From: Psychrobacter aestuarii
GTDB lineage: Bacteria > Pseudomonadota > Gammaproteobacteria > Pseudomonadales > Moraxellaceae
Direction: 5' to 3'
DNA length: 64,000 nucleotides
Assembly: GCF_904846035.1 (NCBI RefSeq)
Contig: NZ_CAJGYT010000001.1
Location: 2,356,001 to 2,420,000 of the forward strand
Below the pieces are notes generated by a model. It worked only from the letters and a program-made list of their open reading frames with translations. It had not been told where the DNA came from and searched no databases. Shown here one piece after another: positions 20,229 to 28,726 of the stretch (position 1 is the first letter of the stretch; every line of letters starts with the position of its first letter). A program made the translations under genes and the position numbers.

Positions 20229-20252
20229 TATCCAAAGCATGTCCGTATTGTA

Positions 20253-20300
20253 AAATCAGGCGGTAATACGTAGAAAACAGACGTATTAACCGCCTGATTT
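20253..20300 (+). terminator. Long inverted repeat after the esterase gene
   Basis: AAATCAGGCGGTAATACGT pairs with ACGTATTAACCGCCTGATTT, a 19-bp stem with one bulged A and a 9-base loop. There is only a mixed T-rich tail (GCTTTGGTTT), so it may be a terminator or an mRNA-stabilising hairpin. Confidence 0.65.
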
Positions 20301-20520
20301 GCTTTGGTTTAATAGCGCCTAAATGCCCCTAAATCTGCAAATTTGTGCTAAAATAGCCTCTTTTATTTACTATTAAAATGATTGCCATCTGCCCAGCCCA
20401 GCACCGAAGTTTTGGGGCTTTTTTTGTATATTGGCACGCCTATAAGACGGCATTTATTATTGCGGTCAGGTGTGCCTATATGCATTGCGGTATGGGCACT
20501 ATGTCAGTAAAGGAGTGTAT

Positions 20521-25854: not shown

Positions 25855-26799
25855 TTAATTATCGCTGTTCGCTTCGTCCGCCATGAGTTGTAATTGCCCA
25901 ATCCATTGACGGCTAAACTGATACGCCGAGCGTCCCGAGCGCCCACGCTGCGAGGCAAAGCGTAAGGCATGTGTCTTGGCATCATTGGGCAATTCAGTGT
26001 CGCCCGCTTGCGGTAATTGCGCGGCAATGTTTTTAGGCAACTGCGCCGCCGCTTGCTGCAAATAATGCTGCACAATCTGCAAATACGTCTGCTGATTCAT
26101 CGGCTGGAACGACAGCCACAGCCCAAAGCGGTCGGACAGTGATACCGTCTCATCAATGGTTTCATACGGATTGACCTCATCGGTCTGCCCATTATAGATG
26201 TCCACATTGTCTTTCATCATTTGTGGCAGTAGATGACGGCGATTGCTGGTCGCATAGACGAGCAGTTTGTCTTGCTCTGAGTCCAGCGCGCCATCGAGCA
26301 CGCTTTTTAGCGTGCGGTAGTTTTCGTCATGACCATTGAATGCCAAATCATCACAGTACACCACGTAGCGGCACGCGCAGTCTTTGGGCAAGGTGTTGAT
26401 GGCAGCACGTATCTTATCGAGTACCACAAGGTCATCACGGGCAATCTCAATCACGCGCAGCCCCTCGGCATGGTACTCACGCAGTAGCGCACGGATGAGC
26501 GACGATTTGCCCGCGCCGCGTGTGCCCGTCATCAGGACATGGTTGGCAGGATAGCCCTTTAAAAACTGGCGCGTGTTTTGTACCAGTTTGGCTTTTTGGA
26601 TCTCGATGCCTTGCAAATCGTCCAAGCCAATATGCAGATTGACCGTCAGCGCTTCAAGATGCCCTTGCGCGCCGCCGATCCAGCGATACGCCAGCTGCTC
26701 AGGGTCAATGCTTACAGGTGGGGTGGTGTGCTCAGTGAAGTAGCGGGTCAATAAGTCAATCAGCGGCTCGGGTAGGGCGTAGGGGCGTGGCTCAGACAT
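25855..26799 (-). CDS. ATP-binding protein of the DUF815 family (AAA+-like ATPase)
   Basis: 314 residues from ATG at 26799 (AAGGA about 10 bases before); a longer frame from 26829 has no site. Walker A is TGTRGAGKSS and Walker B YVVYCDDLAF. The central segment has LKSVLDGALDSEQDKLLVYATSNRRHLLPQMM and LSDRFGLWLSFQP, which match DUF815 proteins. The partner and function are unknown. It converges on rnz, 34 bp apart. It is divergent from the protein kinase at 26846, with only 46 bp between the two starts, so their promoters must overlap or be inside the coding regions. Confidence 0.85.
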   Translation of the reverse strand: MSEPRPYALPEPLIDLLTRYFTEHTTPPVSIDPEQLAYRWIGGAQGHLEALTVNLHIGLDDLQGIEIQKAKLVQNTRQFLKGYPANHVLMTGTRGAGKSSLIRALLREYHAEGLRVIEIARDDLVVLDKIRAAINTLPKDCACRYVVYCDDLAFNGHDENYRTLKSVLDGALDSEQDKLLVYATSNRRHLLPQMMKDNVDIYNGQTDEVNPYETIDETVSLSDRFGLWLSFQPMNQQTYLQIVQHYLQQAAAQLPKNIAAQLPQAGDTELPNDAKTHALRFASQRGRSGRSAYQFSRQWIGQLQLMADEANSDN

Positions 26800-26845
26800 A
26801 CAGGCTATCCTTGATAAGACAATAAACAATACAACTAGGTAGGGT

Positions 26846-27742
26846 ATGCCAATGCCGATAAGAGCGCAAGTCGATGCGTACCAAACTCAAATCATCTGTG
26901 CGTTGCGGGCGCGTGGCTATCAAGGCATCATGCCCATGCGTATCAGCTATCAGCCGTCTGAGAAAGCGGGTTTGTCACAAATACAAGGCATTTTGCGCGC
27001 CCGTCATTTAGAACAAGGGCGCGTCATTGTTAAATGGGAAATCAATATCAACTGTGCGTCTGCTAGTTTTGGAAATTTGGATTATGAGATTAGCGTATTA
27101 CCTACCTTGCTGGCATTGCCCACGCTTTCTCAGTATGTCCCGCCCGTTATTGCGCAATACACGTTGCCCTTAGCAGATGATAAAGCTGCTACTGTCTTAA
27201 TCATAAAAAATTGCGGCAGCGACCTACGTGCGCTTTTGCGCCAACATTCTGCTATAAATAAGCCCGAAATAATACAACGCATTGCCGCCGCTTTAGGTAA
27301 ACTGCATCACGCAGGCTGGCTGCATAACGATATAAAGCCTAGCAATATTTTATGCAATGAGAATAGTTTTATTACGCTGTGTGATTTTGCGCTGAGCTGT
27401 CCCATGCGCAATACCGCCGTGCCAATGGGCACGCCTGCCTACCTTGCGCCCGAGCGCTGGCATGGACAGCCTGCCACCGTGCAGACCGATATTTATGCCT
27501 TTGGCGTATTGATGTATGAAATGCTGGCGGGTCAGCGCCCGTATCAAATTGACACAGTACAAGCAGAAAAAGATAAAATGCACGCATGGGCAGTACAGCA
27601 TTGCCAAGCACCAATACCGAAGCTGCCTGCAGAATACGCGCATTGGCAACGAGTTATAGAAGGCTGTCTTGCAAAGCACAAAAATAACCGTTACTGCGAT
27701 ATATCAGAGGTGCTGGCAGCGATAATTGAAGTGCATAAATAA
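26846..27742 (+). CDS. Atypical serine/threonine protein kinase
   Basis: 298 residues, one eukaryotic-like kinase domain. Landmarks are VIVKWE (Lys of subdomain II), an alpha-C-like acidic helix region, LHNDIKPSNIL (HxDxKxxN loop with Asn where Arg is usual), LCDFALS (in place of DFG), GTPAYLAPERW (activation segment and APE) and DIYAFGVLMYEMLAGQRP. The Gly-rich loop is not canonical (KAGLSQIQGILRARH). Key acidic residues remain, so activity is possible but may be weak. No membrane segment or sensor domain is seen. An AGGGT site precedes the start. It is AT-richer than its neighbours and lies next to two microprotein genes, so it may be horizontally acquired. Confidence 0.85.
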   Translation: MPMPIRAQVDAYQTQIICALRARGYQGIMPMRISYQPSEKAGLSQIQGILRARHLEQGRVIVKWEININCASASFGNLDYEISVLPTLLALPTLSQYVPPVIAQYTLPLADDKAATVLIIKNCGSDLRALLRQHSAINKPEIIQRIAAALGKLHHAGWLHNDIKPSNILCNENSFITLCDFALSCPMRNTAVPMGTPAYLAPERWHGQPATVQTDIYAFGVLMYEMLAGQRPYQIDTVQAEKDKMHAWAVQHCQAPIPKLPAEYAHWQRVIEGCLAKHKNNRYCDISEVLAAIIEVHK

Positions 27743-27829
27743 TCAGATGCGACAAGACAGCATGGTCATGATTGCATAGAATGATATTACCAATGCTACC
27801 CTATAAAAATTTTACAAGGTGATGTGATT

Positions 27830-27988
27830 ATGGGTTTTGCCATATTATTGATAGCAACGATATTGGGTTCGATATATTTTAAATATTACACCGAAACAGG
27901 GCGCAAACAGCTGCTCAAAGGCTTTGAAGAATACGACTATAAAAAACCGCAAAAAACAGATATAGAAACCAAAGACGACGCGCTATGA
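27830..27988 (+). CDS. Small membrane protein, 52 residues
   Basis: The ATG at 27830 is 10 bases after AAGGTG. The product starts MGFAILLIATILGSIYF, a hydrophobic segment at residues 2-17. A charged tail rich in Lys/Glu/Asp (KQLLKGFEEYDYKKPQKT) ends at TGA 27988. The clean ribosome site, single N-terminal membrane segment and polar tail support a real gene. I do not recognise a family. It lies 87 bp after the kinase gene in the same direction and in the same AT-rich pocket, so it may share its transcript. Confidence 0.65.
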   Translation: MGFAILLIATILGSIYFKYYTETGRKQLLKGFEEYDYKKPQKTDIETKDDAL

Positions 27989-28007
27989 TGTAAAAGGCGG
28001 TGATTCT

Positions 28008-28026
28008 CTCCGTCCTTACACGGGAG
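28008..28026 (+). promoter_or_regulatory. Hairpin that could hide the ribosome-binding site of the 28035 gene
   Basis: CTCCGT (28008-28013) can pair with ACGGGAG (28020-28026, one bulged G). This encloses a six-base loop and places the GGGAG Shine-Dalgarno inside the stem. If formed, it would limit translation of the downstream secreted microprotein unless melted. The pairing is visible in sequence; the regulatory role is inference. Confidence 0.5.
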
Positions 28027-28034
28027 TGGCTCTG

Positions 28035-28214
28035 ATGAAATATTGGTCAGTACTGTTTGTCTCGGTGTTTATGATGACACCGATTATGGAAGCAAATGCG
28101 CAAAATAAGCCGTGTTCAGGCAAAATGGGCGGCATATCGCATTGTGAAGGCACAAAGTTCGTCTGTAAAAATGGCAAAATCAGTCAGTCAAAGCGCAATT
28201 GTAGTGGCTATTAA
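28035..28214 (+). CDS. Small secreted cysteine-containing protein, 59 residues
   Basis: The start is the ATG at 28035 (GGGAG 8 bases upstream), not the earlier in-frame GTG at 28026. A signal peptide (about residues 1-23, ending EANAQ) is followed by a compact mature part with four Cys: PCSGKMGGISHCEG, FVCKNG and KRNCSGY. The PCSGKxGGI-C-KFVCKxG-C pattern looks like a small periplasmic protein family seen in several proteobacteria, whose function I do not know. Four Cys can make two disulfides. The mature part is short and basic (pI likely high). It lies 46 bp after the 27830 gene and is followed by a terminator. Confidence 0.75.
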   Translation: MKYWSVLFVSVFMMTPIMEANAQNKPCSGKMGGISHCEGTKFVCKNGKISQSKRNCSGY

Positions 28215-28253
28215 CTCGGGTTTTGACCGTCTTTAAAGCAGGTGTTATTAATG

Positions 28254-28290
28254 AGAAAAAACAGCTCACGACTCGCGGGCTGTTTTTTTT
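28254..28290 (+). terminator. Terminator after the 28035 gene
   Basis: AAAAAACAGC pairs with GCTGTTTTTT around a loop holding CGACTCGCG, followed by a run of T. It closes the AT-rich pocket on the plus strand. Confidence 0.85.
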
Positions 28291-28333
28291 GTTTGAATGA
28301 AAACAATGGAATAAAAATAATAGATAGGGAGTT

Positions 28334-28362
28334 GCGAGCAATAAATGTCGCGAGCAATAAAT
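28334..28362. repeat. 13-bp direct repeat, 16-bp period
   Basis: GCGAGCAATAAAT occurs exactly at 28334-28346 and at 28350-28362, between the terminator and the tRNA genes. No coding or structural role is apparent. Confidence 0.6.
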
Positions 28363-28389
28363 AAAGAATAATGACAAAACCTACAGACA

Positions 28390-28415
28390 CAAAAAAACCT
28401 GCTCAAAGGCAGGTT
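28390..28415 (-). terminator. Terminator downstream of first tRNA-Leu copy
   Basis: Minus-strand AACCTGCC..GGCAGG-type stem (GCCTGC..GCAGGTT) followed by TTTTTTT, about 40 bases after the CCA end of the tRNA at 28454. Confidence 0.8.
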
Positions 28416-28453
28416 TTGTATGCGCTTAAGAAAAACTACCTTAAGCTAAATAA

Positions 28454-28538
28454 TGGTGGGGCTGGAGAGACTCGAACTCTCACACCTCGCGGCGCCAGAA
28501 CCTAAATCTGGTGCGTCTACCAATTCCGCCACAGCCCC
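28454..28538 (-). tRNA. tRNA-Leu, anticodon UAG (second in transcription order)
   Basis: 85 nt on the minus strand with CCA encoded. The acceptor stem is GGGGCTG/CAGCCCC with discriminator A. The anticodon loop is TTTAGGT with anticodon TAG on a CCAGA/TCTGG stem, and the T-arm is GAGTTCGAGTCTC. The long variable arm suits tRNA-Leu. It is identical over its whole length to the copy at 28642 and is followed by its own terminator. Confidence 0.97.
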
Positions 28539-28575
28539 GATTCTTTATTAGAGCATCAATCGGTGATGCTTTATA

Positions 28576-28602
28576 AAAAAACCTGCTAAAGAAAGCAGGC
28601 TT
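28576..28602 (-). terminator. Terminator between the two tRNA-Leu genes
   Basis: On the minus strand CCTGCT pairs with AGCAGG, followed by TTTTTTTATAA. It sits between the two tRNA copies. Confidence 0.75.
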
Positions 28603-28641
28603 AGTATGCAGTATGAGACAGTTAAATCACTATCCGAAAAT

Positions 28642-28726
28642 TGGTGGGGCTGGAGAGACTCGAACTCTCACACCTCGCGGCGCCAGAACCTAAATCTGGT
28701 GCGTCTACCAATTCCGCCACAGCCCC
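28642..28726 (-). tRNA. tRNA-Leu, anticodon UAG (first in transcription order)
   Basis: 85 nt on the minus strand with CCA encoded, discriminator A and anticodon TAG. It is the same sequence as the 28454 copy. A clear sigma70-type promoter lies about 90 bases upstream (28817-28844), and a terminator-like hairpin follows. The repeat period of the pair is 188 bp. The flanks between the copies have diverged apart from a shared terminator design. Confidence 0.97.

Follow-up and report, generated by a model that had tools for sequence, protein, structure and literature searches.

A fast-evolving kinase gene at tRNA-Leu(TAG) and the variable interval beside it in Psychrobacter aestuarii

A small group of genes next to two tRNA-Leu genes of Psychrobacter aestuarii raises the question whether a divergent protein kinase and two microproteins encoded behind it arrived together and work together, or merely have the same address. 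The group lies in the window, by which we mean the whole stretch of 64,000 nucleotides analysed here. A preliminary description of this DNA had proposed that the three genes form a small acquired cassette. The features it named, namely the DUF815 ATPase gene, the kinase gene, the ORFs of 52 and 59 amino acids (P52 and P59), the terminator and the tRNA-Leu pair, were all found at their places in the following arrangement.

25855-26829, minus strand: DUF815 AAA-type ATPase gene (PF05673, E-value 5.5e-82; divergent kinase gene as neighbour); ORF as listed, ATG start near 26801
26846-27742, plus strand: divergent protein kinase of 298 aa (PF00069, 2.3e-29; kinase alignment A1, AF2 model, conserved neighbours); core gene outside the variable insert
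27743-28384, no strand: variable interval from the kinase stop to the terminator beside tRNA-Leu; 642 bp long, as compared to 128 bp in the sister genome G086
27830-27988, plus strand: P52, orphan ORF for a predicted single-pass membrane protein of 52 aa (codon score; no relatives detected)
28035-28214, plus strand: P59, YdcA-like four-cysteine protein of 59 aa, most likely exported (NF007463, 8.8e-21; phrog_6000, 5.7e-21)
28254-28290, plus strand: Rho-independent terminator 3' of P59, a hairpin of -17.9 kcal/mol followed by a T-run
28385-28417, no strand: recurring terminator hairpin, shared by many Psychrobacter loci between the kinase and tRNA-Leu genes (pattern matches)
28454-28538, minus strand: tRNA-Leu(TAG), its 3' end toward the variable interval (tRNA call)
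28642-28726, minus strand: second tRNA-Leu(TAG) (tRNA call)

Kinase, P52 and P59 are encoded on one strand, separated by gaps of 87 bp (kinase to P52) and 46 bp (P52 to P59), and the 3' ends of both tRNA-Leu(TAG) genes face these three plus-strand ORFs. Windows of 300 bases starting at 27650 to 28100 contained 37-43% GC, those before 26600 mostly 50-55%. By eye, a plausible ribosome site precedes each of P52 and P59. A promoter scan found promoter-like sites at chance level (6 seen, 5.6 expected); being on the same strand, P52 and P59 could be co-transcribed with the kinase. The hairpin at 28254-28290 is absent from the list of a consensus terminator scan, which probably missed it because of its loop, and the same scan reported the hairpin at 28394-28417 on the minus strand. 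Beyond the two tRNAs, nothing among the known RNA families reached the gathering score. The tRNA-Leu(TAG), doubled here (28454-28726), is doubled in the sister genome G086 too; wherever else it was seen among the Psychrobacter loci read, it is single.

The age of the kinase gene at this place was addressed by comparing genomes of the genus. A kinase match was obtained in 99 of 100 Psychrobacter genomes and a DUF815 match likewise in 99 of 100, the own genome included in both cases; as the raw kinase count takes in general kinases, loci were counted instead. Two sets were used: 20 loci of about 20 kb, chosen among genomes having both kinase and DUF815 (set 1), and 63 loci found by searching with the kinase of the window (set 2). 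In all of these loci, which were picked for having the kinase, it is divergent from and adjacent to DUF815 (20/20 and 63/63). The tRNA-Leu(TAG) follows the kinase on the expected strand within the stretch in 17/20 loci of set 1 and 51/63 of set 2; the 12 set-2 loci in which it was not seen comprise seven for which 4 kb past the kinase were read and five for which the stretch was shorter. The usual order is a GST gene, a small ORF, a metallo-beta-lactamase-fold gene which we take to encode RNase Z, DUF815, kinase and tRNA-Leu, followed in 13/20 loci of set 1 by an NtrC/NtrB-type pair. Three genomes deviate: in G061 the kinase is on another contig than DUF815; G068 has only a weak kinase match, in an 813-aa frame, and DUF815 was not found there; G084 is without a kinase match, its contig breaking off 172 bases past the match to DUF815.

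Judged by the kinase, the nearest named relative is Psychrobacter sp. bablab_jr014, with 76% identity. Between the window and the sister genome G086, the kinase is 77% identical as compared to 96% for DUF815, and the corresponding dN/dS values are 0.24 and 0.045. The kinase value was the highest of nine genes compared and still indicates purifying selection; the kinase gene thus evolves fast. The GC content of the kinase gene (47.9% in the window, DUF815 53.4%) is below that of DUF815 in 19 of 20 relatives, locus L056 being the exception, so that its AT-richness is no sign of import. Relatives therefore have the same gene with the same neighbours and the same base composition, which is what the preliminary description itself had set against its proposal of an acquired kinase. 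On this evidence, the kinase is an old resident core gene that was not acquired with P52 and P59, and the place it has kept points to vertical descent.

The address extends beyond Psychrobacter, as the kinase was found at tRNA-Leu(TAG) in five other genera of the Moraxellaceae (loci L169-L172 and L191-L197). In genus g15 (L169, L170), DUF815, a DUF3336-patatin gene, the kinase and tRNA-Leu(TAG) stand in succession, the patatin gene of L170 being named by eye. The kinase is at the tRNA also in g8 (L172), g14 (L171), g7 (L191-L193, L197) and another g15 genome (L196), and in g9 (L194, L195), where one short ORF intervenes. In three further loci, from g5 and g12 (L173-L175), the stretch fetched contained no tRNA-Leu(TAG). 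Kinase and DUF815 are divergent and at most 5 kb apart in 47 of the 71 non-genus genomes that have both places among the matches listed (one kinase hit per genome, two for G130; genomes outside these 71 include G126, G144 and G195), with 42/44 in g15, and they are not close in the remaining 24. The address of the kinase at tRNA-Leu(TAG) is thus older than the genus Psychrobacter.

The loci of the other genera resemble those of Psychrobacter in the tRNA-Leu(TAG) address, with DUF815 and/or a DUF3336-patatin gene upstream. A DUF3336-patatin phospholipase gene directly precedes the kinase in members of g15, g12 and g9 (L169:2741-4249, L175:3049-4566, L194:5184-6749), but not in the g7 genomes and L171, and none was seen directly before the kinase in the Psychrobacter loci read. 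A literature search combining patatin and DUF3336 matched no publication. Pfam recognised a full N-lobe in the kinases of L171 and L172. The tRNA-Leu(TAG) opposes the direction of the kinase in Psychrobacter and has the same direction in the other genera read (L169, L191, L194); owing to this difference it seems to have been inverted.

The kinase scored 103 bits against PF00069, for which the gathering cut-off is 31.7, and belongs to this superfamily by score. An AF2 model predicted the two-lobe kinase fold (pLDDT 90.4, pTM 0.89), for which Foldseek gave an E-value of 1.3e-15 to 6b2q chain C (TM 0.62/0.69); the best structural matches (TM 0.6-0.7) comprised many eukaryotic kinases along with PknA and PknB, and a comparison of sequences placed StkP and PknB near the top. 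In alignment A1, which comprises 21 kinase sequences, E81, D162, N167, D180 and the APE motif are kept in 21/21, and the position of K63 is lysine in 19 and arginine in two. The arginine position of HRD is occupied by N in 15, G in five and K in one of the 21 sequences, DFG is replaced by DFA in all of them, and no GxGxxG loop was seen in the kinase alignment by eye. The window kinase has all of the catalytic Lys, Glu, Asp and Asn and the metal-binding Asp. As the canonical Hanks-type loop and motifs (GxGxxG, HRD, DFG) are not present in it, we placed the kinase in the PF00069 superfamily only. With the bacterial Hanks-type Ser/Thr kinases PknB, PknA and StkP it shares PF00069, the fold and the catalytic residues, but it differs from them in these three motifs and, with about 300 aa, has neither a membrane helix nor a PASTA part, judged by eye and from the AF2 model.

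As a divergent member of the superfamily, the protein probably works as a soluble Ser/Thr kinase, or did so until recently. In view of the arginine at K63 in two of 21 sequences, some relatives may have lost the activity. The two sequences concerned, with the catalytic Lys replaced by Arg, are those of L060 and L066, and some lineages may hold a pseudokinase. The anti-phage kinase PD-T4-6 was considered and rejected: no match spans the whole kinase model, and the matches start at residue 124 and cover the C-lobe only (best 124-295, 9.9e-35), as expected of any kinase. No publication was matched by a literature search for Psychrobacter together with Hanks-type kinase.

In the sister genome G086, P52 and P59 are absent at this place while the kinase is present; among close relatives, such presence and absence was seen for P52 and P59 only. 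The distance from kinase stop to tRNA ranges from 79 to 3245 bp across the 51 set-2 loci with tRNA-Leu(TAG) and is at most 260 bp in 23 of them. DJ-1/PfpI and RHH_4 genes occupy the interval in 16 of the remaining 28 loci, three of which have a further dehydrogenase-like gene (named by eye); four loci contain three lipoprotein-like ORFs, with one BamE match, four an unassigned protein of 170-177 aa, and four are without any ORF of 85 codons, Pfam having been run on one representative for four of the six clusters. A pattern search allowing up to two mismatches located the recurring terminator no farther than 3.6 kb from the kinase stop in 58/63 set-2 loci, namely at most 120 bp from the stop in 25 and farther in 33, and it was not found in five; it begins 642 bp past the stop in the window as compared to 128 bp in G086. 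The interval between kinase stop and tRNA-Leu is thus a variable site which holds different small genes in different Psychrobacter clades. The accessory pocket postulated earlier beside tRNA-Leu can be retained for this interval, the content of which varies by clade, and has to be given up for the kinase.

The earlier remark that integrase and att repeat are missing was borne out: by eye, no integrase is found among the ORFs of at least 45 codons between kinase and tRNA, and no exact word of 9-20 bases is common to the tRNA and positions 27701-28453. In other genera, phage-type integrase genes were observed 3' of this tRNA-Leu(TAG) (L194:2113-3441, L196:2746-4080), and a frame at the 3' side of this tRNA in L197 (2635-3507) has the arm-binding domain only. 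The tRNA-Leu(TAG) may be a family-wide integration site, and the integrases beside it in other genera make arrival from the tRNA side plausible for the insert of the window, which may have been mobile.

Several origins of the insert were tried and rejected. A repeated element is not indicated, as the locus is the sole full copy in the own genome and the seven other matches are 17-35 bp long. The insert gave no phage match at the DNA level and a single plasmid match, which does not extend beyond the P59 gene (71% over 158 bp). Descent of the terminator at 28254-28290 from the kinase's ancestral terminator was likewise dismissed; at least seven other loci contain a match of 19-20 bases, and by eye none of them has a matching hairpin.

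P59 has four cysteines and, by eye, a signal-like start. It matched NF007463 (PRK10040.1-2) with an E-value of 8.8e-21 over nearly its full length, and since the score of 73.5 bits is under the curated cut-off of 93, we call it YdcA-like rather than YdcA; by its full-length alignment, the four cysteines and the signal-like start it falls into a wider YdcA-like family. The phage protein family phrog_6000 was matched with 5.7e-21, also over nearly the full length. Shuffled sequences reached the codon score of the P59 frame in 0.6% of cases, and one minus-strand frame scored slightly higher (-0.068 vs -0.096); as this score is not distinctive, the gene is supported by homology. A search for solved structures of the family returned a sole match (E 0.0058) to a notch-named chain, which was taken as chance.

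The P59 match in E. coli is located between cybB and hokB/yncP and is presumably ydcA, an identification that also draws on the published description of YdcA cited below. We likewise assume that PRK10040/NF007463 represents the YdcA family, which the E. coli gene order supports. The DNA of the match is present in 5365 of 5426 E. coli genomes. P59 shares with E. coli YdcA the full-length similarity, the four cysteines and the signal-like start, but it is 51% identical to it, scores below the NF007463 cut-off and has other neighbours. One paper describes E. coli YdcA as a protein of 57 aa with a signal sequence, predicted to be periplasmic and of unknown function (PMC11340327). Most likely, P59 acts in the periplasm after export and is stabilised by two disulfide bonds.

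A match to the P59 family was obtained in 65 of 100 Psychrobacter genomes, the own included, some copies containing stops. In 49 of these 65, a copy is located at a distance of 8.1-10.4 kb from the kinase. Four of these loci (L052, L053, L054, L057) were read far enough to show the genes on both sides of the copy, and in each it sits before gyrA. The genes before gyrA were observed at L052:1285-1461 and L053:15435-15611, for example, and the corresponding place in the window is 20229-20469; the own genome has its P59-family copy at 28035 only. In a tree of 25 short sequences, with one gene entered twice and two gyrA-side copies broken or cut, the copy of the window grouped with those of G060 and G017 (support 0.91), and the four gyrA-side copies clustered with one another (0.97). 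Within a plasmid collection that includes a few chromosome-sized records, the family occurs on 58 records, 24 of them with at least 80% query coverage; 29 are from Acinetobacter, 18 from Rhizobium, six from Escherichia and one each from five others, one of these being Psychrobacter. On the 5.4-kb Psychrobacter plasmid pA40P1, a YdcA-like gene (L081:2932-3105) is flanked by a lipoprotein gene and a gene for a hypothetical protein.

P52 begins with a hydrophobic segment, the best mean hydropathy over 17 residues being 2.17 from residue 1, and the protein is most likely anchored in the inner membrane, its charged tail facing the cytoplasm. No relatives were found in 105 genomes of the genus except its own (1/105), on plasmids, or among genome_contigs and viral contigs, the last two scans detecting close relatives only. 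At E-values up to 1, matches appeared in 25 of the 105 genus genomes, i.e. the own and 24 with a best E of 0.17, which were taken as chance, as was phrog_7944 (E 0.02, covering 19 residues). P52 may be a young lineage-specific gene.

We consider it likely, at a probability of about 0.8, that the locus is composite, with an old kinase resident at tRNA-Leu(TAG), a variable interval behind it, and P52 and P59 as local content. An old Moraxellaceae kinase has stayed at tRNA-Leu(TAG), back to back with DUF815 in nearly all Psychrobacter examined, while its sequence has drifted, losing the glycine-rich loop and changing HRD to H(N/G/K)D and DFG to DFA with the other catalytic residues and the fold kept. 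The interval at the 3' side of tRNA-Leu contains different small genes in different Psychrobacter clades, and in the window genome it holds P52 and P59, the visitors, with the kinase as the resident. Kinase and microproteins have a common address and probably form no working unit. A single acquired and cooperating cassette, in which the kinase phosphorylates the P52 tail, agrees with the common strand, the short gaps and the one terminator after P59. A P59-family gene is also found at most 1.2 kb downstream of the kinase in three genomes, namely the window, G083 (directly) and G077 (with another ORF between), and owing to the latter two there may be a loose link between kinase and P59. The cassette as such is nevertheless highly improbable, because the kinase is core and old with an AT bias common to relatives, P52 and P59 had no match in the stretches of the 63 set-2 loci, and neither integrase nor tRNA-end repeat is present. 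Joint gain or loss of the three was not seen, given a core kinase, a P59 family in 65/100 and P52 in 1/105 genomes, and nothing was found that links their functions; neither the common origin nor the cooperation proposed earlier is supported.

Two further readings are compatible with the composite locus, and both concern P52. If P52 and P59 were ancestral with G086 and deleted there, so that the site is decaying in G086 and has gained nothing in the window genome, a remnant might be left, and G086 indeed has 36 bp resembling the tail of the P52 coding sequence, 18 bases past the kinase stop and with a frame-breaking one-base gap. The match scored 40, whereas the maximum was 31 over 1000 Markov shuffles and 33 over the 62 other set-2 loci. 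Part of P52 would accordingly be older than the split from G086, and the gaps on its two sides would have separate origins, at odds with a single clean insertion. However, the stretch lies by eye inside a terminator-like hairpin, a common kind of sequence here, its whole-genome E-value is only 0.04, and P52 was found in no other genus genome searched; as a short match within terminator-like sequence the remnant stays a hint, and we regard loss in G086 as possible, with the odds somewhat against it. Similarly tentative is the reading that P52 is a chance ORF and P59 the sole real cargo. An ATG ORF of at least 52 codons arises in 59% of random 711-base sequences of the same composition, so that length alone gives P52 no support, and no relative was found anywhere searched. 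On the other hand, the P52 frame has the best codon score of the six and was reached by none of 2000 shuffles, which keep base composition only, and the ribosome site seen by eye and the membrane-helix start also argue for a gene. One can finally speculate that the interval is a family-old docking site where envelope genes peculiar to each clade come under the influence of the loop-less DFA kinase, P52 having been born there recently, in part from the old terminator of the kinase, with P59 as its exported partner; we regard this as a long shot.

The composite locus illustrates how AT-richness and an adjoining tRNA made an old core gene look acquired, a tempting inference that was wrong. The yield is modest, namely a variable site beside tRNA-Leu with an address that is constant over much of Psychrobacter, and P59 adds a further chromosomal location to those of the uncharacterised YdcA-like family. 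The possible kinase-lipase pair in several Moraxellaceae genera is worth testing, and the kinase lineage found across the genus, in which DFA replaces DFG and the glycine-rich loop is missing, is a candidate for an activity test.
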